Below, in pieces: positions 1 through 18,549 of a stretch of 42,357 bases of DNA. The notes under the pieces were generated by a model, which ran no database searches, was not told where the DNA came from, and saw only the letters and a list, made by a program, of their open reading frames with translations. Source of the DNA: a virus. The stretch spans positions 1 to 42,357 of the IMG/VR virus record IMGVR_UViG_3300002933_000022, one strand, 5' to 3'. The position numbers and the translations under genes are program-made. Position 1 is the first letter of the stretch; each line of letters starts with the position of its first letter.

Positions 1-68
1 TTAACATAGAGAATTGTATCTACGTTAGCCGTACCATATATTCTAGTCCCACTTTGAAGTTTTGCCAT
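1..68 (-). CDS. Tail-fibre-like protein, N-terminal fragment (runs off window)
   Basis: Only the first 22 codons are inside the window, reading leftwards off the edge. The peptide begins MAKLQSGTRIYGTANVDT, the kind of short opening seen on fibre proteins of T4-like environmental phages. It follows the 327-aa fibre-tip-like gene with a 30-nt gap that holds a late-promoter-like box, and an AGGTAG sequence lies about 7 nt before the ATG. I infer it is one more member of the fibre array. With 22 residues the functional call is weak, but the start and strand are well supported by context. Confidence 0.6.
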   Translation of the reverse strand, partial: MAKLQSGTRIYGTANVDTILYV

Positions 69-92
69 TTATATCTACCTGTTTGTTTCTTC

Positions 93-100
93 TATTTATT
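93..100 (-). promoter_or_regulatory. Late-promoter-like box (AATAAATA) before the edge fibre
   Basis: AATAAATA (one mismatch to the T4 late consensus), 25 nt from the ATG at 68, in a 30-nt gap; it overlaps the stop codon of the 327-aa gene. Confidence 0.5.
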
Positions 101-1082
101 ATGTCAATGTTGAGGTTTCATCCAAGATACCAGCAACATAATAGTTGCCCGACGAATCTTGCCTCCTTGCAATTCCACCAGAAATTGGATATATAGTTAC
201 CTCATCATACATCCCTGATGAAATAATATAATGATTTCCCAAATTATCTTGACGACTAGCTATATTAGTTAAATTTAATGATGTACCATCAAACGTTGCC
301 CATGCAACTCCGCCAGCCTTACCGCCGTTACCACCACCTGCATTACTAGAACCAAACGAACCACTGGAACCACTGGCACCCTTACCAATAGCCCAAATTT
401 GCACGTAATTTGTTCCTGTTGGAAACGTAAATGACCCAGCGCCAGAAGATTCATTGACTAATTGATAATAATTCGTTCCTGCTATCTGATACTGAAATAC
501 TATAGCTGCGTTTCCACCAGCAGCACCAGCACCATAAAAACTAGTACCATTTCCTCCACCACCACCACCGCCACCACCGCCAGCAAAAAAACCAACTGTT
601 CCATTATGCGCAACGCTACCAGTATATTCAGCACCACCATAAGCACCTTTACCAAAATTAGAACTACTAGTTCCGGCTCCGGTTACTGCAGCAAATAAAC
701 CATTAACATCGTTATGACCTTCTATAACCGATGTAGCATTATATGTGCCTATACCACCGCCAGTACCACCAGCACCATTTAAAGCAGAAGTAGTACCTAG
801 TTCACCATTACCACCATTAGCTCCACCATTCGTAAGAGTTCCTTGTACAGTAGCAGTTCCTGTGACTGAGTAAGTACCACCAGCATTATAACCAGAACCA
901 GGATTTCCAACTATAGTCAAACCACCAAATGTAGCAGTAGCAACATCTGATGTAAATGTGTAGGTTAAAGTTAAACCTCCATAAATTACCGGCGCTATAG
1001 GCGCTATAGTAACCTCATCAAAAACACCAGTGTTTTGTATAGAAAAGTTTCCTGACGAGTCTAATCTAGACGCTATAGCCAT
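99..1082 (-). CDS. Glycine-rich fibre tip / adhesin-like protein (327 aa)
   Basis: I do not recognise a named family. What is visible is a Gly-rich protein with a run of ten glycines at residues 168-177 and many GG pairs between about 60 and 260. It also carries three copies of a motif of the form I-A-x-R-x-D-x-x-G-N: IASRLDSSGNFSIQNTG near residue 3, IASRQDNLGNHYIISSG near 272, and IARRQDSSGNYYVAGI near 301. The first two are followed by (F/Y)DEVTI. Gly-rich stretches of this sort form polyglycine-II helices in T4-like adhesins (gp38 type), so a receptor-facing role is inferred. The start codon overlaps the stop of the 1454-aa fibre (TAATG), suggesting translational coupling and perhaps a shared tip. 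It is the last complete gene of the array. Confidence 0.6.
   Translation of the reverse strand: MAIASRLDSSGNFSIQNTGVFDEVTIAPIAPVIYGGLTLTYTFTSDVATATFGGLTIVGNPGSGYNAGGTYSVTGTATVQGTLTNGGANGGNGELGTTSALNGAGGTGGGIGTYNATSVIEGHNDVNGLFAAVTGAGTSSSNFGKGAYGGAEYTGSVAHNGTVGFFAGGGGGGGGGGNGTSFYGAGAAGGNAAIVFQYQIAGTNYYQLVNESSGAGSFTFPTGTNYVQIWAIGKGASGSSGSFGSSNAGGGNGGKAGGVAWATFDGTSLNLTNIASRQDNLGNHYIISSGMYDEVTIYPISGGIARRQDSSGNYYVAGILDETSTLT
552..581 (-). repeat. Polyglycine codon tract (10 Gly) in the 327-aa tip protein
   Basis: Ten GGN codons in a row, a simple-sequence tract liable to change length in units of 3 nt by slippage. Such change would keep the frame and vary the Gly-rich tip. Confidence 0.7.
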
Positions 1083-4000
1083 TATCCAAATACCGTATCA
1101 AGGGTTCCGAGTGTTTGATTGTAGTAGGTATATGCCACACTGACGTTAGCAGTGTTGGAGAATCCTACTCTTCCAGCAGTATATATGTTGTTAGCTACAC
1201 CAAGTCCGCCAGCTATGGTAACAGCTCCTGTCGCAGAGTTACCTGACGCAGTGGTGTTAGAGAAGGCGACTACTGCCGCTGTATTTACAGATCCACCGCC
1301 GCCTGTTCCCCAGTAAACTCCAGTACCATTTGTAGTTAGTACCTGACCAGCTACACCAGCATTCGCAGAGCCATTCGCATATACTGCACCAGTTATACCA
1401 AGGTTAGATACAGATATAGACTGACCATTGGTAAAACCACCTCCACCGCCACCAGATACTGTTGACCAATATACGTTGCCAGATCCATTAGACGTAAGTA
1501 CCTGACCGTTTGTGCCTTGTGAACCAGTAGAATCTATAACACTGATGCCAGCAGTTAATATAACATTAGCTGCATATGTTACCTTACCACTGAAATAACT
1601 ATTGGCGCCAGTAAAATATAGATTGCCTGACAAAGTTCTAGAATCGGTATTTTGAACATATGAAGCGGCTGCTACAGTACCAAGATAGGCAGCACTATTA
1701 GCTGCTAACGTAGCAACATTGGCAGACAAACCAGCAGTAGTTTGATAATTGTTAAGATTAGAAGATAACTGTGCTGTGTTAACATAATTGACAAGATTAG
1801 CTGATAGTTGAGTATTAGACACTACGTTAGCAGCTGATACTAATCCAACAAAAGAAGTGTTGTTAGCAGTTAAAGTAGCAACATTAGATGCGAGACCAGC
1901 AGTAGTTTGATAACCAGAAGCTGCAACTCCTCCAAGGTAAGAAGTATTATTAGCATTTAATGTGCTATTTGAAGATAAAGTAGCAATATATGTGCTATTA
2001 ACAAACACACCTGATGAATTTGAAATCAAACCAGTATTAGCAACAATATAATTTGCAAGATTAGCTGTAAGAGTTACAACGTTAGATGCAAGACCAGCAG
2101 TAGTTTGATAGACAGATAATGAAGCTGATGTTAAATAATTTGCAAGATTAGCAGCTAGTTGAGCATTAGATACTACGTTAGCAGCAGATACTGTTCCAAC
2201 ATATGCTGTATTGTTTGCTGTAAGAGTAGCAACGTTAGATGATAAACCAGATGTAGTTTGATAATTTGCAAGGTTAGAACTAAGCTGGGCATTAGATACA
2301 ACGTTAGCAGCTGAAACAGTTCCAACGAATGATGTATTGTTAGCAGTTAAAGTAGCAACATTAGATGCAAGACCAGCTGTAGTTTGGTATCCAGATAATG
2401 ATGCCGATGTTAAATAATTTGCAAGATTAGCAGTTAATTGAGCATTAGACACTACGTTAGCAGCAGATACTATACCAACAAAAGAAGTATTGTTAGCGGT
2501 TAAAGTCGCAACATTAGAACTCAACCCAGCACTAGTTTGGTATGCTGTCATACCTGCAGTTGTTTGATAATTTGCAAGGTTAGAACTTAATTGAGTATTA
2601 GATACTACGTTAGCTGCAGACACAGAACCAACAAAATTAGTGTTATTGGCAGTAAGTGTGGCAACGTTACTAATTAAACCAGCAGTAGTTTGGTATCCAG
2701 ATAATGAAGCTGATGTTAAATAATTCGAAAGATTAGCAGTTAATTGAGCATTAGATACAACGTTAGCAGCTGAAACAGTTCCAACGAATGATGTATTGTT
2801 AGCAGTTAAAGTAGCTACGTTACCAGACAACCCAGCAGTAGTTTGGTAAGCAGTCATACCAGCTGTAGTTTGGTAATTAACTAGGTTTGCACTTAATTGC
2901 GAATTAGATACAACATTAATTGCTGAAACAGTTCCAACGAATGATGTATTGTTAGCAGTTAAAGTAGCTACGTTACCAGACAACCCAGCAGTTGTTTGAT
3001 AAGCAGTCATACCAGAAGTTAACTGGTAGTTAGCTAAATTATTTGTTAGGTTTGTCGTTGTTACGTAATTAGCCAAATTCGAACTTAACTGTGTATTAGA
3101 TACAACGTTAGCAGCTGAAACAGTTCCAACGAATGATGTATTGTTAGCAGTTAAAGTAGCTACGTTGGCTGACAACCCAGCAGTAGTTTGGTAATTTGAA
3201 AGATTAGAACTAAGTTGGGCATTAGACACAATGTTAGCGGCAGATACAGTTCCAACAAACGAGGTGTTGTTAGCTGTACCAGTATAAATTGTAGTATTTA
3301 CAGTTGCATATACCGTCGAGTTGCCTGCATAAAATGTATCAGCTTGCATAGTTCCAAGAGCAATGCCTGTAGGATCAGAAAGAGCGGCATCCGTAGATGT
3401 TTTATAATATGTAAGGAATGCATTTGATTGATTAATTGCAAGCAAAGCTTGTTTGTCAACAGTATCATAATAATGGAAAGCTGTACCAATTAATTTGCCA
3501 TCATTAGAAGTTAATGGCGCAAGATTAGCAAGTGTATGAAGACTAATAACAGCATCTTGAATAACTAAATTGTTAGCACCAACAGAAACACTATTACCAG
3601 AAAAAGTTATATTTCCTGATACTGTTAAGTTATTTGAAATAGTAACTGCACCACTAAATGTAGCGCCAGTAAGAGCAGCATAACCAGCGAGATTAGAACT
3701 AAGCTGAGTATTCGATACAACATTGGCAGCAGAAGTAGTTCCAACATAATTAGTGTTGTTAGCAGTTAAATTTAATACATTAGATGACAAACCAGCCGTA
3801 GTTTGATAATTGTTCAAATTAGAAGATAACTGACTAGTATTAACGAAATACTGAATGTTAGCTTGTAGCTGTGTATTAGATACTACGTTAGCAGCGGATA
3901 CAGATCCAACAAACGATGTATTATTGGCAGTAAGTGTTGCTACATTCGAACTTAATCCAGCAGTAGTTTGGTAGTTAGCCAAATTAGAACTAAGCTGTGT

Positions 4001-5446
4001 ATTAGATACCACGTTAGCTGCAGACACAGAACCAACGAAACTAGTATTGTTAGCTGTGAGAGTTGCTACATTAGCCGACAATCCAGCAGTAGTTTGGTAG
4101 TTAACTAAGTTTGAAGATAGCTGTGTATTCGAAACAACGTTAGCAGCAGATACTGTTCCAACATAATTAGTATTGTTAGCAGTACCAGTAAATGTAGTAG
4201 CGTTAACAGTTCCTGTAACAGTAATACCACTTGAGTTAACAACTGCCATTGCTGTACAAGCAACGCCACCATTATAAAGTGTTAAACTATCAGCTGGACC
4301 TACAGATATACGCCCATTTCCAGTAATATAATCAACAACAATACCATCTGCATATACAGGAGAACCAGCGAATGTAGAATTCGTATAAAAACCATTACTT
4401 GCAACAACTTCATTATTTACTATCAGAACACCATTAACAACAAGATTAGCACTGTGTGTATGAACACCAGTTATTGTGTAAGTGCCAGAAGTATTAACAT
4501 AATTTGCAGCAGCAACACCACCTAAATTATTTGCATTGTTTGCTGTAAGAGTTGCAACATTAGAACTCAAACCAGCAGTTGTTTGATATGCTGACATACC
4601 CGAAAGCAACTGATAATTAGATAAATTGGAAGATAGTTGTGCATTAGACACAACGTCAACAGCTGCAACCGTTCCAACGAAATTGGTATTATTAGAAGTA
4701 AGTGTTACTACGTTAGAAGCAAGACCAATTAATGTTTGATAATTTGATAAATTACTTGACAACTGAGAAGTATTGACGTATAATTGTCCTGTAACAAATG
4801 AAACTGCATTAGAGTAAGCAGTAGCTGAATTAGCTGTGATAGCAGTATTAACAACACCGATTCGAGTATCTGTGTATGTTGTCGAATTACTGTATGCAGC
4901 TGCAGCATTAGCAATCATAGCTGTATTTGCAACACCTATTTTAGTATCGGTATATGAAATTGCAGCACCAGCTTTAGCTGTGGCATCAGCAGAAGCAACT
5001 GTAACAGCGTTCGAATAAGCAGTAGCTGAATTAGCTGTGATAGCAGTTGCTATTTGACCAACAATTTGTGCATTTACATATGATACTGCATTAGAGTAAG
5101 CAGTACAAGCGGATGTATCAGTATAAGTTCTTAAAGTAAGAGCAGTGTTACCATTAAGATAAGTTGCAGAATTTGCTGCTAGAGTTGCTACGTTTGCAGC
5201 CAACCCAGCTGTGGTTTGATAACCAGTAGAAATAAGACCACCAAGATATGTGGAATTGTTAGCATAATTTGCATTATTTGCTAGTTGAGCAATAGCATAA
5301 CTTAAACTTGACCAAGCAGTAATACCATCACCAATTTTATAATAACTGGTATCGATTTCTAAACCAAGTTCACCTTGAGCCAGTGTAGTGTTCGCAGACT
5401 GCCATTGTGCAGCCGTTCCTCTACGAAATTGAATTTGAATGGCCAT
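1082..5446 (-). CDS. Long repetitive tail fibre (1454 aa)
   Basis: This is a fibre-like structural protein. Residues 1-50 resemble the Mtd_N-type module found at the head of many phage fibres (QGELGLEIDTSYYKIGDG). Most of the rest is an imperfect repeat of about 40-50 residues built on NNTSFVGTVSAANVVSN, TQLSSNLANYQTTAGLS and NVATLTA, expected to be a fibrous trimer shaft. A globular-looking insert near residues 610-690 (NNLVIQDAVISLHT, then a FHYYDTVDKQ segment) interrupts the shaft. Near the C-terminus two copies of a GQVLTxNGxGxxxW motif precede a short end. The ATG overlaps the previous stop (TAATG), has GGTGGAG 7 nt upstream, and has a perfect TATAAATA box 32 nt upstream inside the preceding gene. 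Several DNA repeats are near-identical, implying recent internal duplication or conversion. Confidence 0.85.
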   Translation of the reverse strand: MAIQIQFRRGTAAQWQSANTTLAQGELGLEIDTSYYKIGDGITAWSSLSYAIAQLANNANYANNSTYLGGLISTGYQTTAGLAANVATLAANSATYLNGNTALTLRTYTDTSACTAYSNAVSYVNAQIVGQIATAITANSATAYSNAVTVASADATAKAGAAISYTDTKIGVANTAMIANAAAAYSNSTTYTDTRIGVVNTAITANSATAYSNAVSFVTGQLYVNTSQLSSNLSNYQTLIGLASNVVTLTSNNTNFVGTVAAVDVVSNAQLSSNLSNYQLLSGMSAYQTTAGLSSNVATLTANNANNLGGVAAANYVNTSGTYTITGVHTHSANLVVNGVLIVNNEVVASNGFYTNSTFAGSPVYADGIVVDYITGNGRISVGPADSLTLYNGGVACTAMAVVNSSGITVTGTVNATTFTGTANNTNYVGTVSAANVVSNTQLSSNLVNYQTTAGLSANVATLTANNTSFVGSVSAANVVSNTQLSSNLANYQTTAGLSSNVATLTANNTSFVGSVSAANVVSNTQLQANIQYFVNTSQLSSNLNNYQTTAGLSSNVLNLTANNTNYVGTTSAANVVSNTQLSSNLAGYAALTGATFSGAVTISNNLTVSGNITFSGNSVSVGANNLVIQDAVISLHTLANLAPLTSNDGKLIGTAFHYYDTVDKQALLAINQSNAFLTYYKTSTDAALSDPTGIALGTMQADTFYAGNSTVYATVNTTIYTGTANNTSFVGTVSAANIVSNAQLSSNLSNYQTTAGLSANVATLTANNTSFVGTVSAANVVSNTQLSSNLANYVTTTNLTNNLANYQLTSGMTAYQTTAGLSGNVATLTANNTSFVGTVSAINVVSNSQLSANLVNYQTTAGMTAYQTTAGLSGNVATLTANNTSFVGTVSAANVVSNAQLTANLSNYLTSASLSGYQTTAGLISNVATLTANNTNFVGSVSAANVVSNTQLSSNLANYQTTAGMTAYQTSAGLSSNVATLTANNTSFVGIVSAANVVSNAQLTANLANYLTSASLSGYQTTAGLASNVATLTANNTSFVGTVSAANVVSNAQLSSNLANYQTTSGLSSNVATLTANNTAYVGTVSAANVVSNAQLAANLANYLTSASLSVYQTTAGLASNVVTLTANLANYIVANTGLISNSSGVFVNSTYIATLSSNSTLNANNTSYLGGVAASGYQTTAGLASNVATLTANNTSFVGLVSAANVVSNTQLSANLVNYVNTAQLSSNLNNYQTTAGLSANVATLAANSAAYLGTVAAASYVQNTDSRTLSGNLYFTGANSYFSGKVTYAANVILTAGISVIDSTGSQGTNGQVLTSNGSGNVYWSTVSGGGGGGFTNGQSISVSNLGITGAVYANGSANAGVAGQVLTTNGTGVYWGTGGGGSVNTAAVVAFSNTTASGNSATGAVTIAGGLGVANNIYTAGRVGFSNTANVSVAYTYYNQTLGTLDTVFG
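1680..4160 (-). repeat. Imperfect long coding repeats in the 1454-aa fibre
   Basis: Repeat units of about 110-190 bp recur through this stretch. A 71-nt block is identical at 2769-2839 and 2922-2992. The first 53 nt of it recur at 3114-3166 and the first 47 nt at 2310-2356. Such identity, higher than needed for protein similarity, points to recent duplication or gene conversion. Confidence 0.75.
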
Positions 5447-7029
5447 TAGTACACTCCACCGGCATCTAGTCTAGGATTATTTATATAAGAAGATAGAGGG
5501 CTACCTCCATCGAAAATACCACCACTAGCATTAGTAATGTCTGACCAATAAACACCATTACCGTTCGATGTCAATACCAATCCTTTATTACCGATAAAAT
5601 TATTCGCGAACAATGGACCTGTTAATGCAAGATTAGCAACAGAAATCGATTGACCGTTTGTTGTTTGCCAAAACACATTACCCGATGCATCAGCTGCTAA
5701 AACTTGTCCTGTAGTACCAGAAATACTGTTAGCTATAAGTGCTCCTAATAAATGAACGTTAGCAGCATGACGATAAACACCAGTAATAAGATAATTACCG
5801 AATGTAGTAGGATAATTATATGGAGCAAGATTATTAAAATACGCAGAATTGTTCGCAGTTAATTTAGCAACATTAGCAGCTAATCCTGCATTAGTTTGTA
5901 ATGTTGGTATAACGTTAGCATAAGCATATTGATTGGCAGCAAACCCACCAAGATAAGAAGCATTATTAGAATTTAAAGTTGCTACATTAGCAGCTAATCC
6001 TGCTGTTGTTTGTACAGAGTTAGCAAATGGATATTGATTGGCAGAAAATCCTCCAAGATATAATGAATTATTAGAATCTAATTGTGCTACGTTAGCAGCT
6101 AATCCTGCTGTTGTTTGAAGTGTAGGTATAACGTTAGAAAATGCATATTGATCAGCATTATAACCACCTAAATTATAAGCATTATTAGCACTTAAAGTAG
6201 CTACGTTAGCAGCTAATCCTGCTGTTGTTTGAAGTGTAGGTATAACGTTAGCATAAGCATATTGAGTAGCGGCAATACCTCCAAGATATAGAGAGTTATT
6301 CGCAGTTAATTTAGCAACGTTTGATGATAAACCTGATGATGTTTGAAGAGTAGGTATAACATTCGAATATGCATATTGATCAGCTGTAAGCCCATTAAAA
6401 TATAAAGTATCATTTGCAAAATAAGAAATACCTGTAAAAAATACGTTAGTTGAGTTAGCAAACATAGTTGCATTAACAGTTGTATTACCTACTATAACAT
6501 TTGCAAAATGAAAATGTATACCACTAATTGCATAATTACCAGAAGTATTAACGTAAGCACTAGAAGGTGCGCCATTTAAATGTATTGCATTATTTACTGA
6601 GTTAGCCCAATATACTCCTGTAGGAGTAGATGCTAATACATCACCAGTATTTCCGGAAGATGAATTGGCATATAAAAAATCTGTAGTAACACCATTATTT
6701 ACATATAATCCATTTTGAGCCTGTAAAAACCCAGAAAAAGATGCTTGATATGAATCTACGTAAGTGTTTGAACCACCAAATGAAGATATTTTAAAAGCTG
6801 TTGAATTGACAGATATATTTGATAACGCATCACCAATAATAACAGCTGCAGTATCAATATTTGTCGGTGTTATATATGTATAAACAGAAGAATTACCAAC
6901 GCTGATATGACTTGCATTTGCAAATAAATTGTTTGCTGCCTGGTCGATCTGACCATCAATATACTCTGTTAAAGTTTGAATCGCAAGATGACTTGAAGAT
7001 AAAACTGAAGAGAAATTAAAATTTGGCAT
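5446..7029 (-). CDS. Tail-fibre-like structural protein (527 aa)
   Basis: A fibre paralogue. The N-terminus (MPNFNFSSVLSSSHLAIQTL) differs from its neighbours and may be a separate attachment module. From about residue 220 to 400 there are six imperfect repeats of roughly 37 residues with the pattern NNSLYLGGxxAxQYAYANVI followed by PTLQTTAGLAANVA. Two shared fibre motifs occur: SGNYAISGIHFHFAN near residue 165 and FGNYLITGVYRHAAN near 408. GQVL/GLVL...W motifs appear three times (TGDVLASTPTGVYW, TGQVLAADASGNVFW, KGLVLTSNGNGVYW). It ends in a DGGSP segment and RLDAGGVY, similar to the LDGGxF ends of its paralogues. It lies 3 nt after one fibre gene and overlaps the next by 1 nt, so it is probably co-expressed and co-assembled with them. 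Confidence 0.8.
   Translation of the reverse strand: MPNFNFSSVLSSSHLAIQTLTEYIDGQIDQAANNLFANASHISVGNSSVYTYITPTNIDTAAVIIGDALSNISVNSTAFKISSFGGSNTYVDSYQASFSGFLQAQNGLYVNNGVTTDFLYANSSSGNTGDVLASTPTGVYWANSVNNAIHLNGAPSSAYVNTSGNYAISGIHFHFANVIVGNTTVNATMFANSTNVFFTGISYFANDTLYFNGLTADQYAYSNVIPTLQTSSGLSSNVAKLTANNSLYLGGIAATQYAYANVIPTLQTTAGLAANVATLSANNAYNLGGYNADQYAFSNVIPTLQTTAGLAANVAQLDSNNSLYLGGFSANQYPFANSVQTTAGLAANVATLNSNNASYLGGFAANQYAYANVIPTLQTNAGLAANVAKLTANNSAYFNNLAPYNYPTTFGNYLITGVYRHAANVHLLGALIANSISGTTGQVLAADASGNVFWQTTNGQSISVANLALTGPLFANNFIGNKGLVLTSNGNGVYWSDITNASGGIFDGGSPLSSYINNPRLDAGGVY
5478..5485 (-). promoter_or_regulatory. T4-type late promoter (TATAAATA) inside the 527-aa gene, before the 1454-aa fibre
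   Basis: A perfect TATAAATA overlapping the last codons of the 527-aa gene, 32 nt from the ATG at 5446, with GGTGGAG between. Since the genes overlap by 1 nt, a promoter for the long fibre has to lie in the coding sequence. Confidence 0.6.
5820..6390 (-). repeat. About 110-bp coding repeats in the 527-aa fibre
   Basis: Six units of roughly 37 codons, each with LYLGG/YNLGG, QYAYANVIPTLQTTAGLAAN and NVA(T/K)L. Units are similar but not identical in DNA. Boundaries approximate. Confidence 0.7.
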
Positions 7030-7032
7030 CTA

Positions 7033-8505
7033 TTATCCCACGCTGCTTGGATTAAAAGTTCTAGATCCACTCACATCGATAATATTACCAACAGTGGTAT
7101 TACCAACATAAACACCACTATCAAAAACATAAACTACTTTTGTTCCATTTTTAATAGTAACACCAACTGGATTAGCAGCGTAAATATTACCAACTATTGA
7201 AGTATTAGCTAATACTGGGCACAATTGAGATAAATTGCCGACTGTGCCACTTTCTGTGTAATCTATTATTATACTTCCAGAAGTTAATGTTATTAAGCTT
7301 AATCCATTATATAAACTATACGGCGGTGAACCTATTGTTCTTGTAGTGTATATTATTACAATTGTAGAATTACCATTACCGTTGTCAGATATACTGTTTA
7401 TAGTCCAAGTACCATTTAATACATTTGGATTTAATCTAATTCCTGCAACACTAGATGTAATAGGAGTATAATTTGGGATTCCAGTAAATGTTATACTTGA
7501 ACCTGTGGTATATCCAGAAAATGATACAGAAGGGGCTGTTATTTCGAAATATACATTTCCTATTTCAATTTTATTTGAATTGTAATAAAAATTAGGATCA
7601 TTATAAATGAATAATGTTGCACCTACAAGACTAACAGGAACAGTGGCATATTGACTTTGCATATATGCCACTGTTAAAGAATCTAATACAGTAAGAGTTA
7701 CAGCGGCTGGTGTATTATTATAATCTAATAATGAAAATGGAACTTTTTTATAATTAACATTGGTTACATAAGCTTGGTCTAAATTTTGATATAAATGTGG
7801 ACCTCTTGTTGCTACTGTAACCAACCCAGTTGTATCTCTAGTAATACTTTGAATTGTTCTATCGCCCCATTTATATTTAAAGTTATCAGTTGGTACTGTA
7901 AACGTTATAGTATTTGGTGTTGGTACGCCAATAATATTAAAACCATTTTGGTAATCAACACTATAATTTGCAGTATTAAGAGAAACTTGAGCAGTATTTA
8001 CAATGAGTTTTGATTGAGATATAGATGTAATACCATGATCAATTGAAGTTTGTATTGTAGCAACACCAGTAGTACTAATATTTGCTAAACTTATCGAAAT
8101 TGATTTTATACCACCAGTTACATCAATCGCAATATTAGCAGCAGTATTGCCAACATATATTGTAGTTGGGCTAAGAACTGAATTACTGGTACTATTTTGA
8201 ACAGAAATAGATGTAGTATTGATTGTTGTATTAGTATATAAATTACCGGTAAAAACAGATGTTGAATTAATTGATAAAAGATCTGAAGCAATATCGCCGA
8301 TACGAAGGGATTCGCTAAGTGTTAGCGAGGCGCCAGCCGAACCAATTGTAATCAGATTTGTTCCATCTGATGTATACAATTGCTTGTCTGTCATATTAAG
8401 CGCAAATTCGCCTGGCGCTATGTATGATGTGTTTGAAGAATTTGTAGTGTTAGGAACACGACCAGGAACAGTCGTACGCTTAACTTGAATTCTGTTATTA
8501 GCCAA
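7033..8505 (-). CDS. Tail-fibre-like protein with a distinct C-terminal half (490 aa), TTG start
   Basis: The reading frame could begin at a GTG at 8514, but I chose the TTG at 8505. It has GAAGGG exactly 8 nt upstream (8514-8519), and the resulting N-terminus (M)ANNRIQVKRT aligns with MASNKIQIRRS of the 821-aa fibre and MVSRPIQIKYS of the 213-aa one. The GTG would leave no room for a ribosome site. Residues 1-85 form the shared fibre head (PGEFALNMTDKQLYTSDG). After a short Asn/Ser/Thr-rich linker the C-terminal two thirds (from about residue 170) is less repetitive, with FKYKWGDRTIQSITRD and ATRGPHLYQNL segments. It is probably a globular beta domain rather than a shaft. Function beyond virion structure is unknown. 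Confidence 0.75.
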   Translation of the reverse strand: MANNRIQVKRTTVPGRVPNTTNSSNTSYIAPGEFALNMTDKQLYTSDGTNLITIGSAGASLTLSESLRIGDIASDLLSINSTSVFTGNLYTNTTINTTSISVQNSTSNSVLSPTTIYVGNTAANIAIDVTGGIKSISISLANISTTGVATIQTSIDHGITSISQSKLIVNTAQVSLNTANYSVDYQNGFNIIGVPTPNTITFTVPTDNFKYKWGDRTIQSITRDTTGLVTVATRGPHLYQNLDQAYVTNVNYKKVPFSLLDYNNTPAAVTLTVLDSLTVAYMQSQYATVPVSLVGATLFIYNDPNFYYNSNKIEIGNVYFEITAPSVSFSGYTTGSSITFTGIPNYTPITSSVAGIRLNPNVLNGTWTINSISDNGNGNSTIVIIYTTRTIGSPPYSLYNGLSLITLTSGSIIIDYTESGTVGNLSQLCPVLANTSIVGNIYAANPVGVTIKNGTKVVYVFDSGVYVGNTTVGNIIDVSGSRTFNPSSVG

Positions 8506-8513
8506 TATTGGCA

Positions 8514-8519
8514 CCCTTC
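8514..8519 (-). promoter_or_regulatory. Ribosome binding site deciding the TTG start at 8505
   Basis: GAAGGG with 8 nt to the TTG. The alternative GTG at 8512-8514 overlaps this site, which rules it out as the main start. Confidence 0.65.
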
Positions 8520-8524
8520 ATAAT

Positions 8525-8536
8525 CGGTATATACCG
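8525..8536. promoter_or_regulatory. Palindrome CGGTATATACCG in the gap before the 490-aa fibre
   Basis: A perfect 12-bp palindrome about 20-31 nt before the TTG start at 8505, exactly where other gaps of this size carry the late-promoter box. It could be an operator, a degenerate promoter containing TATATA, or a small hairpin (CGGT/ACCG with a 4-nt loop). No way to decide from sequence. Confidence 0.35.
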
Positions 8537-8540
8537 AGGT

Positions 8541-8882
8541 TTAATCTTCTTTTGCCTTTTTACTTTTTTGATTTTCAGAAACTAGCAAAACAGCATTTTT
8601 TAATGATTCGTTTTCTTGAATTATTTTTTTCTTTTCATCGAGTAAAATTTGATTTTCATCAATTATTTCTTTGTTAGTATTAGATAAATTTTTGTACAAA
8701 TCTTCTTGGCGTTTCTTGTTATTTTCATAATCTTCAATTAATTTGTTTTTTTCTTCTGCTAATTTAGTAATTGCCTTTTCAGCAATTACTAATCTTGTTT
8801 GAAGCATAATTTCACTGCGAGTCAATTCTTCAATTTTTTTATTATTCATTTCAATGTATGTGTTAACAAATTCTTCATTCAT
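8541..8882 (-). CDS. Small coiled-coil protein, unknown function (113 aa)
   Basis: The whole protein is highly charged and helical. Residues 1-105 show heptad-like spacing of L/I with K/E (for example LTRSEIMLQTRLVIAEKAIT and LLDEKKKIIQENESL), then a Lys-rich tail SKKAKED. There is no transmembrane segment or signal. A GGAGAT ribosome site lies about 6 nt before the ATG in the 15-nt gap. Placed between two fibre genes, it could be a fibre-assembly chaperone or a trimerising accessory, but nothing in the sequence proves this. It differs clearly in composition from the Asn/Thr-rich fibres around it. Small coiled-coil ORFs in this position recur in related phages as far as I recall, but I cannot check it here. 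Confidence 0.7.
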   Translation of the reverse strand: MNEEFVNTYIEMNNKKIEELTRSEIMLQTRLVIAEKAITKLAEEKNKLIEDYENNKKRQEDLYKNLSNTNKEIIDENQILLDEKKKIIQENESLKNAVLLVSENQKSKKAKED

Positions 8883-8897
8883 AATATATCTCCATTG

Positions 8898-11363
8898 TTA
8901 AAAAGAACCACCATCTAGTACATCATAATAAGGAAGGTTTGATGCGGATATTTGTAATACTTGTCCAACAGTACCAATTGATAACTTACTTAGTGTGCTT
9001 GAAGAACCAGCATATAAAATATCACCAGTACTAAATGATGTTTGTCCAGTACCACCATTATTTGCATATAATGCAGTACTTAAATTTATAGTATTAGCTT
9101 TGATATTAACTGAAAATGAACTGTTTGCTTGAATAGTAACTACTGTAGAATTCGCAAGAAAACCACCAACTGAATTTGAACCTACAAGTGGTCCATGTGG
9201 TTCTAAATATGCTCCTAATGTACCAACACTATAAGTTGATTCTTGAGTAGAGTTGGCAATTTGAGCAGCGCCGTATGGATCTGTTGGTTCAAGTTTAGTA
9301 GAGAAAAATCTCCAAACATCTTTTCTACCACTACTTGAAGAAGCTCTACTATCTCTATAAACACCAGAAAACCAAACGTTAGCTGTATTACCATATGTGC
9401 CGTAAAGACCAAAATCAAGACTATCAAGATAAGTTGCACTATTAGCCTGATAGTCTGCTACTTTAATTAAGTTATCTTTTACAACAAGAGTATTAGTATC
9501 AACTGTAGTTAAGGTGCCAAGAATAGTTAAACTGTTAGCAGTAATACTTGTTGCATATATGTTAGCAGCTGATACGTTAGCAACGAATGTAGTATTACCA
9601 AAATATTGATTTTGTCCAGTATACGAAGCATTTCTTGCAAGCGTATCCGCCATCGCATTTGCATATGCTTGGTTTATTTGTGTACCAACAGTAACGAGAT
9701 CATTACTGATTAATGTTTGGGCATTAGCGTATGCTTGTGCTGCTTTACCATCAACATATGCTTGAGTTGCAGCACCACCAGTAGCATTATAAACAGCAGC
9801 ATCAACATAACTTGTAGTAGCGTAAGAAGAAGCTAATGTACCACCAAGATAAGCAGAATTATTTGCGGAATAAGTTGTTCCTGTAAAATAAACTGTTGTA
9901 CTGTTAGAAGTAATAGCACCATTTACACTAGTATTACCAATAGCAATAAATGTTGAATTTACAATAACCCCAGTAGCAGCAACACCATAACCACCACCAG
10001 TAGTATAAGAAGTAGCATTAACAGTACCAGTAAATAAACTACCAGATAGTTTAGCATAATTGGCAAGATTAGAACTTAATTGAGTATTAGATACTACGTT
10101 AGCTGCAGATATTGAACCAGCACCAACACCAACATAATTTGTAGTGTTTGCAGTAAGGTTTTGAACATAACCAGATAATGCAGAATTTGTGGTATAATAA
10201 GAAGGTAATTGATTTCCAAGATAATTAGCATTGTTGGCAGCTAATATCGCTACGTTAGCAGCAAGTCCTGCTGATGTTTGATAATTAGCTAATGCAGAAT
10301 TAGCAGCATAATAAGTGTAATATTGACCACCAAGATAATTAGCGCTGTTAGCTGCTGATGAATTAATTAAAGAAATTGTACCGGAGGTGTTGGTATAATT
10401 AGCTAAATTAGCTTGTAATTGTGCATTAGATACAACATTAGCAGCAGATACTGAACCAACAAAATTTGTACTATTAGAAGTGAGACCCAATACTTGCGTA
10501 GTAAAATTACCAATCGTAACATAATTAGCTAATGCAGAATTAGCAGCATAGTAAGTATAATACTGCCCACCAAGGTAATTTGCATTATTAGCAGTTAATG
10601 TAGCAACGTTAGCAGCAAGTGTGTCATTTCTTTGTAGTGGTGTTATAGAATTAGCATAAGCGTATTGAGTGGCTAAAACCCCACCGAGATATACCGCATT
10701 ATTAGATGTAAGAAGAGCTACACGTGAAGCTTCTCCAGCAAGAGTACCATAATTAGATAATGCAGAATTAGCAGCAAAATAAGTAGCTGCCTGACCACCA
10801 AGATAATTACTATTGTTAGCAGTTAATACAGCAACATTAGCAGCTAGTCCTGATATCGTTTGATAAGTTGCAGCTGCATAAGTACTGTTAACGTATGCGC
10901 CTGCAAGTACACCACCAAGATATAGTGAGTTATTCGCAGTGCCGTTAATTGTCGCTCCAAATGTAACTACATTTTGAAATACTTGAGTATTCGCCCAAGT
11001 ATACTGAGCATTTTGATCTACACCAAATCCAGAAGTAGCTTGCCAAGAAACATTACCACTAGTACCTGCAGATGTTAAAACATAACCAGGTGTTCCCCAA
11101 TCATTATTAGCATTAACTCTGTTTACTGTAAGATTAGCACTAATAATTCGATCAATGCCACCAGAAGAATTAGCAACAAGAGCTTGGTTTGCAATTAAAA
11201 TACCAGGAGTACGTGCTCCGCCAATTGGAATCGCAGCGCTCGTAACAGGATCACCAATATAAAGTATACCGCCGTTACTAGTATATGCTAATTCGCCCTG
11301 TGATAAACCAGTAACATTACTGTTAGACTGCGAGCGTCTAATTTGAATTTTGTTGCTTGCCAT
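8898..11363 (-). CDS. Tail fibre (821 aa)
   Basis: Starts MASNKIQIRRSQ, with the shared fibre-head segment LSQGELAYTSNGGILYIGDP at residues 20-39. The shaft carries repeats of about 35 residues with NNANYLGGQYYTYYAANSAL and NYQTSAGLAANVA patterns. Near residues 625-700 is a globular module (VVKDNLIKVAD, then LDFGLYGTYG, SGVYRDSR, WRFFSTKLEP) of a type seen in many phage fibres. Near the end is GGTGQTSFSTGDILYAGSSS, another widespread fibre motif, then GQVLQIS and the terminus VLDGGSF. The gap upstream holds an AATAAATA box and AAGGG 9 nt before the ATG. It probably forms a trimeric side fibre. Confidence 0.85.
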   Translation of the reverse strand: MASNKIQIRRSQSNSNVTGLSQGELAYTSNGGILYIGDPVTSAAIPIGGARTPGILIANQALVANSSGGIDRIISANLTVNRVNANNDWGTPGYVLTSAGTSGNVSWQATSGFGVDQNAQYTWANTQVFQNVVTFGATINGTANNSLYLGGVLAGAYVNSTYAAATYQTISGLAANVAVLTANNSNYLGGQAATYFAANSALSNYGTLAGEASRVALLTSNNAVYLGGVLATQYAYANSITPLQRNDTLAANVATLTANNANYLGGQYYTYYAANSALANYVTIGNFTTQVLGLTSNSTNFVGSVSAANVVSNAQLQANLANYTNTSGTISLINSSAANSANYLGGQYYTYYAANSALANYQTSAGLAANVAILAANNANYLGNQLPSYYTTNSALSGYVQNLTANTTNYVGVGAGSISAANVVSNTQLSSNLANYAKLSGSLFTGTVNATSYTTGGGYGVAATGVIVNSTFIAIGNTSVNGAITSNSTTVYFTGTTYSANNSAYLGGTLASSYATTSYVDAAVYNATGGAATQAYVDGKAAQAYANAQTLISNDLVTVGTQINQAYANAMADTLARNASYTGQNQYFGNTTFVANVSAANIYATSITANSLTILGTLTTVDTNTLVVKDNLIKVADYQANSATYLDSLDFGLYGTYGNTANVWFSGVYRDSRASSSSGRKDVWRFFSTKLEPTDPYGAAQIANSTQESTYSVGTLGAYLEPHGPLVGSNSVGGFLANSTVVTIQANSSFSVNIKANTINLSTALYANNGGTGQTSFSTGDILYAGSSSTLSKLSIGTVGQVLQISASNLPYYDVLDGGSF

Positions 11364-11382
11364 TACGGAAACCCTTTTTTAT

Positions 11383-11390
11383 TATTTATT
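11383..11390 (-). promoter_or_regulatory. Late-promoter-like box (AATAAATA) before the 821-aa fibre
   Basis: AATAAATA in the 30-nt gap, 20 nt from the ATG at 11363, followed by AAGGG as ribosome site. One mismatch to TATAAATA. Confidence 0.5.
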
Positions 11391-11393
11391 TAA

Positions 11394-12035
11394 TCAGAAA
11401 TTTCCACCATCAAGACCAGCTCCTGTTGAAGAAATAACTGTAGCAAGATTCGACCAAAAAACATTACCAGAATCACCGTTAGACGTTAACAAATCCCAAT
11501 CGTTACCAGCACTACCTCCAATTATTATTCTACTATTTATAGCTATATTTGCATTGTATGTATGAACACCATTAATAACATAATTGCCATATGTATTAAT
11601 ATAGTAATCTGATGTATACCCGTTTAAACTTGCAGCATTATTTGAAGTACCAGAAAAAAATGATGAATTTATTATGCCGTCGCCAATAGATATACTTGTC
11701 GAATTAATTGTGCTGTTAACAGTATTGTTACCAATACTAATAGCTCCAATTATTATATTATTTGCTGTTATTCTATTAGAAATTAATTGTGATATTTCAC
11801 CAAGATCAGCAATAACATGGTCGATACCGCTAGTAGAGTTTGCAACTAATGCCTGGTTCGCTGTGAGAAAACCAGGGACCATTTGTCCACCGATACGAAT
11901 ATTATCAGAAGATCCATCTGGCGAACCAATAAAAAAAGTATTTCCGGTTTGTGTGAATGCAAGTTCGCCCTGAAGAAGGGTCGGTACGACATTATTCGTC
12001 ACAGAATATTTAATTTGTATTGGTCTAGAAACCAT
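11394..12035 (-). CDS. Short tail-fibre paralogue (213 aa)
   Basis: A compact member of the same family as the 821-aa and 490-aa proteins. The head MVSRPIQIKYS and LLQGELAFTQTGNTFFIGSP (residues 20-39) matches theirs. A middle segment is rich in NSTxxS/IGNNT. The common YGNYVINGVHTYNAN motif is near residue 147, followed by LLTSNGDSGNVFW and the terminus GLDGGNF. It looks like a fibre with the shaft repeats removed, keeping head, HxH-like motif, VLTSNG motif and terminal tag. Its ATG is 22 nt downstream of a perfect TATAAATA box, the best late promoter among the fibre genes. It may be a minimal fibre, an adaptor, or the attachment portion of a multi-protein fibre. Confidence 0.75.
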   Translation of the reverse strand: MVSRPIQIKYSVTNNVVPTLLQGELAFTQTGNTFFIGSPDGSSDNIRIGGQMVPGFLTANQALVANSTSGIDHVIADLGEISQLISNRITANNIIIGAISIGNNTVNSTINSTSISIGDGIINSSFFSGTSNNAASLNGYTSDYYINTYGNYVINGVHTYNANIAINSRIIIGGSAGNDWDLLTSNGDSGNVFWSNLATVISSTGAGLDGGNF

Positions 12036-12056
12036 GTCGCGAAGCTCTTTTATTAG

Positions 12057-12064
12057 TATTTATA
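12057..12064 (-). promoter_or_regulatory. T4-type late promoter (TATAAATA) before the 213-aa fibre
   Basis: A perfect TATAAATA, continuing ACTAAT, in the 30-nt gap between the 113-aa gene and the 213-aa fibre. It is 22 nt from the ATG at 12035. Confidence 0.72.
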
Positions 12065-12065
12065 T

Positions 12066-12407
12066 CTAGAAAGTACCTCCATGCAATCCTCCTGTAACAT
12101 AATCCATGTCAAGCTGCTTCACGACATAAGTGGTGTTACTAGTTTCGTAAACAAGAGTAGAACCTTCAACTTTATTTGAACTGTCAATATTTTTAAGTTG
12201 CTCTAACAATTCAGCGCCTACCGAAAGTAGCGTAGGCGTATTTACCAAGGTAACAGGACTAGTAGAATCAATTATACCCATTGTTGCATTAGCTGAAACT
12301 TGAACTGTTTTTTGCTTAGCAACAATCACATTCGTTGTTTGTGTTTTAGTTACATTAGTAGAAACATTAACACGATTAATTTTGTTTATTAATGCTACAC
12401 TAACCAT
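12066..12407 (-). CDS. Small fibre-associated protein, unknown (113 aa)
   Basis: I do not recognise a family. The N-terminal half is rich in V/T/N (NVTKTQTTNVIVAKQKTVQV), suggesting beta strands, and residues 50-113 contain LLSVGAELLEQLKNID. The protein ends GGLHGGTF, echoing the LDGGSF and LDGGNF ends of neighbouring fibre paralogues, which suggests a shared terminal tag. It lies 3 nt after the 109-aa gene and is separated from the next gene by a 30-nt gap containing a late promoter. It is probably a small virion or fibre-assembly component; that is inference from position and the shared terminus only. Confidence 0.65.
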   Translation of the reverse strand: MVSVALINKINRVNVSTNVTKTQTTNVIVAKQKTVQVSANATMGIIDSTSPVTLVNTPTLLSVGAELLEQLKNIDSSNKVEGSTLVYETSNTTYVVKQLDMDYVTGGLHGGTF

Positions 12408-12410
12408 CGA

Positions 12411-12740
12411 TTATCTCGTTACTTGAGGAGTGACCGTAACAATACCTTCAACAACTCTAGAAACAGTATTACCATTAGTTATTTCTACGTCATAAACATA
12501 TCTACCAGCCGTTATTCCATTAGTACTATTTGCTGTTAAACTTAAAGTAATAAATGAAGAATCAGTATTTATAAAAGTATTAAATGTTGCTGTAGCATTA
12601 ACAGAAGTATACGTTTTTCTCATTTGAGATGCAGCAGTATAACCCGATAAAATCAAAGGCATACCATCTGTATCTGTTAAATATAAATCAGTTGAAAACG
12701 TAGCGCCCTGATCGATTACTAGATTAGCTTTAGATGCCAT
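12411..12740 (-). CDS. Small beta-sandwich-like structural protein (109 aa)
   Basis: A small protein with the pattern VIDQGATFSTDLYLTDTDG, then LSGYTAASQMRKTY, ending GIVTVTPQVTR. This arrangement (an 'F.t.l.v.D..G.p.dLtGyta..qmR' opening and a 'YvYDVEIT....V.RVVEGIVTVTP' close) is one I know from small conserved structural ORFs of T4-like cyanophages and resembles BppU-type N-terminal domains of phage baseplate or receptor-binding proteins. It probably folds as an immunoglobulin-like sandwich and joins fibre components. It follows the 1022-aa fibre by 1 nt (TGAcATG) and precedes another small ORF, so all three are likely translated together. The specific role is unknown. Confidence 0.7.
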   Translation of the reverse strand: MASKANLVIDQGATFSTDLYLTDTDGMPLILSGYTAASQMRKTYTSVNATATFNTFINTDSSFITLSLTANSTNGITAGRYVYDVEITNGNTVSRVVEGIVTVTPQVTR

Positions 12741-12741
12741 G

Positions 12742-15700
12742 TCACACCACCAAATTAGTTCTAGTTAATGTTGCAACAACAGTAGTTGTTGCTGCTGCTA
12801 TACGTATTCTAATGTTACCGCTATTAATATCAGCGCTGAATGTACCTAATAAACTTTTATTATATAACTGAGCGTATTCAGTAATATAAGGGCTAGTTCC
12901 ATCATGAAGGATTAGTATTTTACTTACTTGATAACTAGTAGATGAAAGATCTGTTAATTGAATAAGATATTCAGCAGATCGATACGCAGTAGCCGAGAAA
13001 CTATCAACAGTTTCAGCTCCTGTTGTTAAGAAATTATACTTGCCAGAATATGAATAAGAAGTATTGCTAATAGACAAATAATTAGATACTGCAGTATTAC
13101 CGGAAATACTAACACTATTGCTTACAGTAACAATACCATTAAACGTAGAATTAGAATTGAAAACAGAATTAGCTTGTATTATAGTATTTCCATTAAAAGT
13201 AGAAATACTGGTAACAAACATTGTGTTAACAGTAGCAACATTTAATGTTGAATTTGACGTTACTGTAATATTAGCAAAATTGCCATTTGAAGTAACATCA
13301 ATACTGTTAGCAGAAATAGTCCAACGTAGTGTATTATTACCAAGTAAATTACCATTGGCATTTGGATAAGTGTTACCTACTGTAATAGTATTATTAACCG
13401 TAACTGGATTAACAAAACTAGCACCCATAGCTGAAAGGTTAAATCTATTAGTATTATTACCAAGATTGACAGAATTACTTGTTGGTATAATATCACCGGC
13501 AGCAGAAGAACTTTGAGAAGTAGTACCAGTAACGTACAAGTTACCCGATACGTGTAAATCACCACCAAAGAAAGAATTACTTCCAGATACTGTACTATTT
13601 CCTGTTACTGTTATATTTTGACCAACAGAAACAGAATTTGAAACTATAAGCCAGTTGCCGTTAATATTATTTGCATTTAATATAGGAAGAGTACCAACTG
13701 CAGTAATACCGGTATACTGACCAGAAATTCTTCCTGGTGCTAAAATACCTGATGTTAAATTGGTAGCATTAGTAGAAGCTGTAGTTACAGTACTAACTAT
13801 AGAAGCACTTACACTATCAGTATAACTAGTTGCACTAGATAAAGTAGAAGATGCTTTACTGTCAGTATATGCAGTTGAGTTAGCATAAGCAGTTGCAGCT
13901 TTACCATCAGTGTATACAATAGCAGCTGAATAAATTGAATCTGTATAAGATCTTAAAGTTGCAGCACTATTACCATTTAAATAATTTGCATTATTAGCAG
14001 TGATTAAAGGTTGATTTGCAGTAGTAAGAAGACCAGCAATGTTAGTTGCAAAAACGTTTGACACAGTAATAGAAGTTGAATTAATTACTGTGTTAACTAA
14101 ACCATTTCCGATACTGATAAATGAACTGTTATTTGTTGCAATACTTAAACTACTGTTAGAAATAGATACAGCACCATTTACAGATAAACCTCCGTTTGCT
14201 GTAATAGAATTGTTAACAACAATAGCACCATTAACACTCACAGAACTAAGGAAAGTAGCAAGACCTGTTGTAATAATTTGACTTGAAAAGGTTGTATAGC
14301 CAGCAACGTTAAGAGTATTTGATAATACTGTTGCACCAGTTACAGAAATACTATTACTTAAAGTTGTATTACCAGTAACTACTAATGAATTCGAAAAAGT
14401 AACATTGCCAGTTACAGCAAGAGAATTGCCGAATGTAGAGTTACCAACAACTGATAATGTATTTGCAAATTGAGCATTACTTACAACATTCATAGAACTA
14501 TTAACAGTAACGCCACCATTTACAAATAATGTATTTGAGAAAGTAACATTACCGACAGCCGAAATAGTATTACTGAAAGTAGCGGTGCTTGTTACAGCTA
14601 TAGAATTCGCAAACGAAGCAGCGCCAGTAACAGCGATTGTATTACTAAACGTAGAATTTCCTGTTACTGTAAAAGTATTAGATAAATTAACATTACCGCT
14701 TACTGATAAAGTATTACCAAATGCAACGTTACCAGTTACAACCATAGCATTAGATAAAGTAACGTTACCAGTAACTAACAATGTATTCGAAAAAGTAACA
14801 TTGCCAGTTACAGCTACTGAATTACTGAATGTAGAATTGCCAGTAATAGAAAGACTATTAGCACCAACAATAGAACTGTTTACTGCCAATACACCAGGTA
14901 CAACAACTCCACCAGAAGTTTGGAAACTACCAGAATTGTCAGAAAGTGTTACTGTGCCAAGATAAATGGTAGATCCAGAAACGTAAAGAGATTTCCAACT
15001 AAATGTAGAGTTACCAAGAGTATAAGTGTTATTGACATCAGGTGTTAAATTAGAATCTACTTTTTGTATATTGACAGCATTTGCAATAGTAGTGTAACCA
15101 CCAATTGCAACATTAGCAGAAATATTAGCAGTACCTGTAACAGCGAGAGTAGCGTTTGGGGCAGTATTGTTGATACCAATACCGGTATCAGTAATACGCA
15201 TACGCTCGTTTTGTCTAAATCCACCACTAGTAAAAAAACTTATATATTTGTTAGAAGAATTTGTACCAATAGTAAGATTGCCACCACCAGTATAAAGATA
15301 TCCGTCATTTGCAACACCAATAGTCCACTGAGTATTGGACCAAACAGTACTTAAAACACCCATGTCGACAAATGTAGATTGGGTAATATCATCGTTGTAA
15401 GCAACCCAATCAGCAGAAGCAGCTAAACCAGTATTACTGTTTGTTGTAGTTGTTTGAATATATGAATTTGTACTGGCATAAAAAGAACCAATAGCCTGCG
15501 TCGCAGATACATAACCAAATGCAGCATTAATTGTCGTATTACCAACACTAAGATAATTATTAACGAAAGTATTTGAAACAATCAATAATGCTGTATTAGT
15601 TGAAATATTACCACCAGCAAGTGTAGTGGTATATAAAGTGTTTGCACCAAACATACCATTAACAAATGCATTACCTGTCGTATAAGCGCCACCTGCTAAT

Positions 15701-15810
15701 GCTCCTGTCGTAATAACGTTAGAAGAAAAAGCATCTGCTACGTCATTTATTCTCTGAACAACAGAGCCAAAAGATTGCGAATATGAAATTTCTGAAATTT
15801 GGATAGCCAT
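12742..15810 (-). CDS. Long tail-fibre protein with dodecad repeats (1022 aa)
   Basis: The N-terminal region (MAIQISEISYSQSFGSVVQR and about 300 residues) contains non-repetitive segments such as ASADWVAYNDDITQSTFVDM. From about residue 318 to 545 the protein is a tandem 12-residue repeat, for example NVTFSNTLLVTG and NVTLSNAMVVTG, about 18-19 copies, consistent with a triple beta-helix or beta-spiral shaft. Next comes an Ala/Tyr/Asp/Ser segment (AYANSTAYTDSKA), possibly a coiled coil. The last about 100 residues form a non-repetitive domain (ETVDSFSATAYRSAEYLIQ, then LILHDGTSPYITEYAQLY) that recurs at the C-terminus of fibre-like proteins in environmental T4-like phages. It is the first fibre gene after the baseplate block, and separate from the N-terminal-head family of the other fibres. 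Confidence 0.82.
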   Translation of the reverse strand: MAIQISEISYSQSFGSVVQRINDVADAFSSNVITTGALAGGAYTTGNAFVNGMFGANTLYTTTLAGGNISTNTALLIVSNTFVNNYLSVGNTTINAAFGYVSATQAIGSFYASTNSYIQTTTTNSNTGLAASADWVAYNDDITQSTFVDMGVLSTVWSNTQWTIGVANDGYLYTGGGNLTIGTNSSNKYISFFTSGGFRQNERMRITDTGIGINNTAPNATLAVTGTANISANVAIGGYTTIANAVNIQKVDSNLTPDVNNTYTLGNSTFSWKSLYVSGSTIYLGTVTLSDNSGSFQTSGGVVVPGVLAVNSSIVGANSLSITGNSTFSNSVAVTGNVTFSNTLLVTGNVTLSNAMVVTGNVAFGNTLSVSGNVNLSNTFTVTGNSTFSNTIAVTGAASFANSIAVTSTATFSNTISAVGNVTFSNTLFVNGGVTVNSSMNVVSNAQFANTLSVVGNSTFGNSLAVTGNVTFSNSLVVTGNTTLSNSISVTGATVLSNTLNVAGYTTFSSQIITTGLATFLSSVSVNGAIVVNNSITANGGLSVNGAVSISNSSLSIATNNSSFISIGNGLVNTVINSTSITVSNVFATNIAGLLTTANQPLITANNANYLNGNSAATLRSYTDSIYSAAIVYTDGKAATAYANSTAYTDSKASSTLSSATSYTDSVSASIVSTVTTASTNATNLTSGILAPGRISGQYTGITAVGTLPILNANNINGNWLIVSNSVSVGQNITVTGNSTVSGSNSFFGGDLHVSGNLYVTGTTSQSSSAAGDIIPTSNSVNLGNNTNRFNLSAMGASFVNPVTVNNTITVGNTYPNANGNLLGNNTLRWTISANSIDVTSNGNFANITVTSNSTLNVATVNTMFVTSISTFNGNTIIQANSVFNSNSTFNGIVTVSNSVSISGNTAVSNYLSISNTSYSYSGKYNFLTTGAETVDSFSATAYRSAEYLIQLTDLSSTSYQVSKILILHDGTSPYITEYAQLYNKSLLGTFSADINSGNIRIRIAAATTTVVATLTRTNLVV
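14165..14860 (-). repeat. Tandem 36-bp coding repeats (12-residue unit) in the 1022-aa fibre
   Basis: About 18-19 in-frame copies of a 36-bp unit encoding variants of N-V-T-F-S-N-T-L-x-V-T-G. Units are diverged (NVAFGNTLSVSG, NSTFSNTIAVTG, NTTLSNSISVTG), so this is an old structural repeat forming a fibre shaft, not a recent expansion. Boundaries approximate. Confidence 0.8.
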
Positions 15811-15813
15811 TTA

Positions 15814-16029
15814 TTACAATTTTCCTAAAAGAGTTTTTAACATATCTTTAATCTCATTAATATCGTTTTTCATTGTATCATGTTCTTCAACAACTCTAGC
15901 AACTTTCATTTTATATTCACGTTCTAACTTATATTTATTTAATTCATCTGGGTCGCAATTGACAATACCTTTGCTTCCTTTTTGGCGAAGTAAATTTTTA
16001 TGATTGCGAACTTTAATATATTCTACCAT
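15814..16029 (-). CDS. Small basic coiled-coil protein, unknown (71 aa)
   Basis: A 71-residue protein starting MVEYIKVRNHKNLLRQKGSK, followed by GIVNCDPDELNKYKLERE and a Lys/Glu-rich C-terminal helix (NDINEIKDMLKTLLGKL). The layout 'V..h.nLvRd..s.aIin.d..e...Y' is one I have seen in short ORFs of T4-like phages, but I know of no assigned role. It lies one base after the 829-aa protein and 3 nt before the 1022-aa fibre, so it is co-translated with large structural proteins and could assist their assembly. There is no membrane segment. Confidence is high that it is a gene and low for any function. Confidence 0.7.
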   Translation of the reverse strand: MVEYIKVRNHKNLLRQKGSKGIVNCDPDELNKYKLEREYKMKVARVVEEHDTMKNDINEIKDMLKTLLGKL

Positions 16030-18520: not shown

Positions 18521-18539
18521 AGATTTACCTTTTTATGAA

Positions 18540-18547: not shown

Positions 18548-18549
18548 AC

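Follow-up and report, generated by a model that had tools for sequence, protein, structure and literature searches.

A constant gene series and a movable tip-adhesin module in the predicted host recognition cluster of an uncultured T4-like phage

Introduction

The virus record IMGVR_UViG_3300002933_000022 (42,357 nt, analysed at its full length and hereafter called the window) carries a row of fibre-like genes on its minus strand, which raises the question of whether these genes are interchangeable versions of one another or parts with separate roles. An initial annotation described an array of at least six fibre paralogues and proposed that one particle carries several fibre types, or that tips are swapped by recombination. 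In pelagimyophages and cyanomyophages, the host recognition cluster (HRC), located between VrlC and the neck genes, is reported to be large and variable and to hold several fibres (Zaragoza-Solas 2020, PMC7029224). That T-even phages exchange gp37/gp38 in a modular way has long been known (PMC3797505).

Results

The fibre genes stand in a predicted host recognition cluster

The window contains a T4-like gene set comprising tail tube, neck/head-closure and baseplate proteins, gp6, and VrlC. Among cultured phages, the best matches of its gp6 were those of Caulobacter phage Cr30, pelagiphage HTVC008M, and cyanophages, at 32-37% identity. The fibre genes are located directly downstream of VrlC/DUF4815 (phrog_358 at 16031-23043), and there are several tail fibres that differ among relatives. 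On the side of the neck genes, the window stops inside the island, and the islands of two relatives, G002 and G022, reach the neck genes. Because this placement, with VrlC on one side and, in these relatives, the neck genes on the other, agrees with the published HRC (PMC7029224), we assign the region, on its gene content and order, to the HRC of Kyanoviridae-like T4 phages in an uncultured freshwater phage. It shares with the HRC, as described in the available part of that paper, the place, the several fibre genes, Mtd and concanavalin-type domains, and the variability, whereas no glycosyltransferases were seen in this part of the island.

Megablast of the first 24 kb of the window against phages gave no match, nor did tblastn against phages with the 821-aa and 327-aa proteins as queries. 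Comparison with bacterial genomes gave no pointer to the host, and the window has no tRNA genes. The contigs of G021 and G022, and likewise the window and G001, were identical except for one 3-nt length difference in VrlC. VrlC/DUF4815 is encoded by two genes in the window and several relatives and by a single gene of ~2000 aa in other relatives; the first half ends in a fast-changing low-complexity tail that is Gly/Cys/Ser- or Asp-rich. A 97-aa PAAR-like protein, assigned by eye, is encoded at 30961-31254 and adjoins a gp25-like gene.

The features of the island are as follows.

1..68, minus: 5' end (22 codons) of the 'GTRIYG' fibre gene, beginning MAKLQSGTRIYGTANVDT and running off the window
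99..1082, minus: 327-aa putative tip adhesin with a Gly-rich centre between DE repeats (DE-repeat profile; Gly_rich_2 sub-threshold)
996..1082, minus: DE repeat 1 (residues 1-29)
183..275, minus: DE repeat 2 (residues 270-300)
102..188, minus: DE repeat 3 (residues 299-327)
1082..5446, minus: 1454-aa fibre with head C (Mtd_N), 42/51-aa shaft repeats, and LDTVFG tip (Mtd_N E 3e-14)
1085..1156, minus: 24-aa tip peptide, ending VAYTYYNQTLGTLDTVFG, kept in 25 complete carriers
5318..5434, minus: Mtd_N head of the 1454-aa fibre (residues 5-43; Pfam)
5446..7029, minus: 527-aa headless fibre, ending LDAGGVY (43% identity to the 453-aa gene at the same place in G002)
7033..8505, minus: 490-aa head-B fibre with TTG start (head profile)
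8541..8882, minus: 113-aa coiled-coil-like protein between the head-A and head-B fibres (same-place orthologues)
8898..11363, minus: 821-aa head-A fibre, ending LDGGSF (head profile; 46% full-length identity to the 750-aa gene of G002)
11394..12035, minus: 213-aa extra head-A protein without shaft, ending LDGGNF (DNA match to G002)
12066..12407, minus: 113-aa short core protein, ending LHGGTF (G-G-x-F invariant in 35 aligned sequences)
12411..12740, minus: 109-aa LtfC-like protein, putative fibre-assembly factor (phrog_3304 E 7e-19)
12742..15810, minus: 1022-aa fibre-like protein with its own N-terminal family (66-67% full-length identity to the G002 orthologue)
15814..16029, minus: 71-aa small protein between VrlC and the fibres (84% identity to the G002 orthologue)
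16031..23043, minus: VrlC/DUF4815-like, split into 829- and 1497-aa genes (phrog_358 E 2e-76 and 1e-223), upstream border of the island

The six fibre-like ORFs of the initial annotation (1454, 527, 493/490, 821, 213, and 1022 aa) are all intact and lie on the minus strand at 1082-15810. The length of 490 aa given there is correct, as relatives begin at TTG (MANN...), three codons after GTG, and the partial gene noted at the edge is the start of the 'GTRIYG' fibre gene. The 327-aa adhesin, the LtfC-like gene, the short protein at 12066-12407, and the coiled coil had not been listed. Cyanophage P-HM1 has a 73-aa protein, annotated as virion structural, in a place similar to that of the 71-aa protein.

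Three related head families

A common N-terminal head had been claimed for at least four of the proteins. We found it on the 1454-, 490-, 821-, and 213-aa proteins; the 527- and 1022-aa proteins lack it. Only the head of the 1454-aa fibre passed the gathering cut-off of Pfam Mtd_N (PF18454; 53 bits against 26.3) and so belongs to the N-terminal domain family of Mtd and phage hyaluronidases. The heads of the 821-, 213-, and 490-aa proteins singly fell below this cut-off, and all three matched one head profile. These three belong to two related families, head A (821 and 213 aa) and head B (490 aa), and the Mtd_N head of the 1454-aa fibre is termed head C. Comparison of the head-A profile with that of head B showed the two to be homologous (hhalign probability 97.5%, E 6e-12). 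AlphaFold gave a moderate model of head A (pLDDT 72), for which the best Foldseek matches were Mtd and phage hyaluronidases, none of them significant. PDB searches with head A, head B, and the short protein returned nothing useful.

A series of core genes is constant among relatives

We surveyed 80 IMG/VR loci (~60 distinct) anchored on the LtfC-like protein, and nearly all showed the same series. The order, seen in ~50 distinct relatives, is the LtfC-like protein, the short protein ending GGxF, the head-A fibre ending LDGGxF, the coiled coil, and the head-B fibre, beyond which variable genes extend up to the neck genes. The notion that the whole set forms an interchangeable pool of paralogues finds no support in the stretch from the LtfC-like gene to the head-B fibre, which is fixed and single-copy in these relatives. 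The LtfC-like protein matched phrog_3304 (E 7e-19), scored below the cut-off of PF23926, and was found in 109 phage records. The series also occurs in cultured phages. P-HM1 (PHM1_091-095) has the core order, heads, and C-terminal GGSF/DGGTF of the window, with proteins of 112 aa (LtfC-like), 73 aa (...NGGSF), 559 aa (...IDGGTF), 68 aa, and 2425 aa, but differs in that its head-B protein reaches 2425 aa and in that the DE repeat described below was not found in cultured phages. Melnitz keeps the core order without the coiled coil. In locus L110, the module of head-A fibre and coiled coil is doubled: 575 aa (LDGGMF), 82 aa, 482 aa (LDGGTF), and 66 aa, followed by a 359-aa fibre.

Complete head-A genes ended with (L/I)DGGx(F/Y) in 50 of 52 loci. 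Among 1112 complete ORFs, 111 had an xGGx(F/Y) end; 108 of these were head-A or short proteins, and two more were split head-A copies. This C-terminal peptide is specific to head-A and short proteins. The head-A genes used for the conservation comparison had been picked by their DGG ending, and the frequency of the ending was therefore taken from the other counts. Identity among these head-A fibres was 54% in the first 100 aa, 27% in the middle, and 52% in the last 100 aa, versus 43%, 22%, and 22% among head-B fibres, with shuffled controls at 20-24%. Head-B tips were unalignable between relatives, their last 100 residues being as unlike as shuffled sequence. The statement that the fibres differ in their C-terminal regions accordingly applies to the 490- and 1454-aa fibres and not to the 821- and 213-aa proteins, whose LDGGxF end is conserved. 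Conservation of head A at both ends indicates that it is not a tip-swapping series, and the different behaviour of heads and tips in head-A and head-B fibres argues against a uniform pool. An IMG/VR scan seeded with the 821-aa fibre yielded none confirmed. Instead of serving as alternative receptor binders, the head-A fibre, the short protein, and the coiled coil probably form structural components of the base of the fibre.

A tip peptide is carried by unrelated fibres

The tip of the 1454-aa fibre is a 24-aa peptide, YTYYN..LGTLDTVFG, and its gene overlaps the 327-aa adhesin gene by TAATG, with the ATG inside the upstream stop codon. Five fibres end with YxYYN..T.SLD(T/V)VF(G/S/V) or a close variant, and in all five the next gene starts in the stop codon in the same manner. 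A scan of IMG/VR with this signature gave 66 matches, 51 of them on fibre-like carriers (35 distinct); the rest resemble chance matches. DE repeats were present in the next gene in 34 of the 35 distinct cases (the exception is truncated), and the third gene was a GTRIYG fibre in 33 of the 33 modules where it was visible. Residues beyond the search pattern were conserved as well, with N at -12 in 25/25 and Y at -16 in 23/25 complete carriers.

Clustering the 25 complete carriers by their N-termini gave seven groups, among them head-B types, a head-A type, head C, a VKNG type, and a MALTR type, so that the tip is on at least seven fibre types in IMG/VR. The same tip and adhesin are attached to the head-C fibre in the window, to a head-B fibre in G022, which has two tip-adhesin pairs, and to a headless 158-aa protein in G002. 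These relatives share 68-74% gp6 identity with the window, and the swapping of tips proposed in the initial annotation thereby gains support. Tip exchange is strongly supported.

Two further loci deserve mention. In L172, a 145-aa carrier upstream of 7278 consists of head and tip without a shaft. On the reverse strand of L226 (4897-9440), a 361-aa GTRIYG fibre ends with the tip-like YTYYNTSTSSVDLVFI, which gives this island a second tip, and its gene overlaps that of a 1152-aa DE-type adhesin. The 527-aa gene of the window overlaps the 1454-aa gene by TAATG, like the tip-adhesin pair, and the same is seen in G002.

Domains of the putative adhesin are bracketed by DE repeats

The DE repeats are ~25 aa long; they lie at either end of the adhesin and also separate its domains. 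Five adhesins served to build the profile, and three of them are also among the 35 counted above; the profile hit no other ORFs of the comparison set. Between the repeats lie laminin-G inserts, Gly-rich inserts, or both, in varying number, in proteins of up to 1901 aa; in a version of 73 aa, the repeats enclose no insert. Between the 327-aa adhesin of the window and the 291-aa adhesin of G022, the first repeat is nearly the same and the last repeats are similar, with a Gly-rich centre in the former and laminin-G in the latter. The Gly-rich match of the window insert (Gly_rich_2) is below the Pfam cut-off.

A tblastn search of 50,697 phage records (327-aa query at E 1e-5; 73-aa version at E 0.1) revealed no DE repeat, although it could miss short diverged repeats. 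An IMG/VR scan seeded with the adhesin alignment yielded none confirmed, PDB sequences contained no gp38 match for the adhesin, and its AlphaFold model was unusable (pLDDT 45). The layout is of the gp38 type: the gene is directly downstream of a distal fibre and combines a constant attachment part with a variable binding part. Gene order, start-stop overlap, and co-occurrence suggest that the 327-aa adhesin docks on the LDTVFG tip, and its bracketed domain would bind the cell.

Possible deletion and recombination in the window lineage

G002 (173-kb contig, gp6 74%) is gene-for-gene collinear with the window through the head-C fibre, and its island extends about 34 kb to the neck genes; G022 (gp6 68%) has a complete, smaller island. 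The 213-aa protein, which had been described as head plus terminus with no shaft, indeed lacks shaft repeats. In DNA, its gene corresponds to two stretches of G002, 41501-41780 and 42978-44022, and lacks 1.15 kb at their junction; it thus joins the head of one G002 gene to the end of the next. Either a deletion in the window or an insertion in G002 could account for this; since L075 also has the two-gene state, deletion in the lineage of the window appears to be the simpler reading.

The N-terminus of the 1454-aa fibre is 76% identical to the head-C fibre of G002, with head and shaft common to both, and its C-terminus is 52% identical to a fibre of L099 and also matches the tip of a different G002 protein. 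Shaft repeats are common to the 1454-, 527-, and 821-aa fibres, mostly at 60-76% DNA identity between genes, with one 41-bp exact match between the 1454- and 821-aa genes. This level of identity suggests that recombination inside this genome happened long ago or seldom occurs.

Discussion

Comparison of the islands reveals a constant core, a movable tip, exchangeable bracketed domains, and start-stop coupling of tip and adhesin. Our preferred reading, to which we give a probability of roughly 70%, is that the region is an HRC in which a fixed core is combined with a movable tip-adhesin module, whose exchangeable bracketed domains would shift receptor specificity. The Mtd_N-like heads would anchor the fibres at the baseplate or on an adaptor that they have in common, and the LtfC-like protein may aid fibre assembly. 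The LDTVFG tip would be the docking end for the adhesin, which would bind the host surface, as gp38 does on gp37 of the T2 type. Tips would move and binding domains would be swapped when the repetitive shafts and the DE brackets recombine or undergo deletion, and receptor specificity would therefore change as the core stays fixed.

A related arrangement is that the core genes encode successive segments of one long fibre, like gp34-35-36-37 of T4, joined via the conserved LDGGxF C-termini and the heads. This fits our preferred reading and touches only the role of the core. It is favoured by the constant order of the genes, by their single copies, and by the conserved peptides at the termini, and a tip module on the last segment would be compatible; but proteins with head B or C are in many cases very short, at 145-250 aa, and the tip also occurs on headless proteins, and we regard the segmented fibre as possible, on the doubtful side. 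That all the genes are interchangeable paralogues, several per particle to widen the host range and recombining inside the genome, is unlikely: homologous heads, the repeats and 41-bp match common to the shafts, and the two tip-adhesin pairs of G022 would suit such a pool, but the core genes group with their positional counterparts in relatives and not with their neighbours, and the doubly conserved head A does not behave as a tip-swapping series.

For the 327-aa protein, an immediate downstream place and translational overlap are also typical of tail-fibre chaperones, and it might help the fibre tip to fold, like gp38 of T4, rather than bind a receptor. The swappable laminin-G and Gly-rich domains of its relatives, in proteins that attain 1901 aa, are typical of surface binding and make a chaperone quite improbable. 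An array of surplus fibre genes left by chance after duplication finds a possible trace in the 213-aa gene, which resembles a fusion remnant of two genes. Such decay is very hard to reconcile with ORFs that are all intact and full length, with frames of up to 1454 codons, and with intact G002 counterparts at 43-84% identity, and we consider it highly improbable.

The fixed core, the C-terminal peptides, and the LDTVFG/DE module are not described in the available part of the HRC paper, where the cluster is called variable (PMC7029224). With gp37/gp38 of the T2 type (PMC12892980 and works cited there), the module shares a small adhesin gene after the fibre and a constant attachment part joined to a variable binding part. 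The Gly-rich adhesin of the window resembles T2-type gp38 (PMC12892980), a likeness in arrangement only. Unlike gp38, which varies loops in a polyglycine sandwich, the window family swaps whole laminin-G and Gly-rich domains between DE repeats, and unlike gp37/gp38, the LDTVFG tip is found on many unrelated fibre types. We tentatively propose, at somewhat short of even odds, that LDTVFG and DE form a standard socket and plug across freshwater T4-like phages, an undescribed system analogous and not homologous to gp37/gp38. With similar reserve, many fibre types may take the socket, and lectin domains may be inserted, removed, and multiplied between the DE repeats.

In uncultured T4-like phages, islands of tail-fibre genes are as a rule called hypervariable and left without annotation; here such an island resolves into a constant core and a short tip module. 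The combination of LDTVFx, TAATGG, and DE repeats offers a signature for a likely receptor-binding protein in metagenomic phages, and host switching of marine and freshwater T4-like phages becomes testable via the tips of closely related genomes. That relatives carry the module on several kinds of fibre, and with sugar-binding domains that differ, suggests how such phages may change their attachment.
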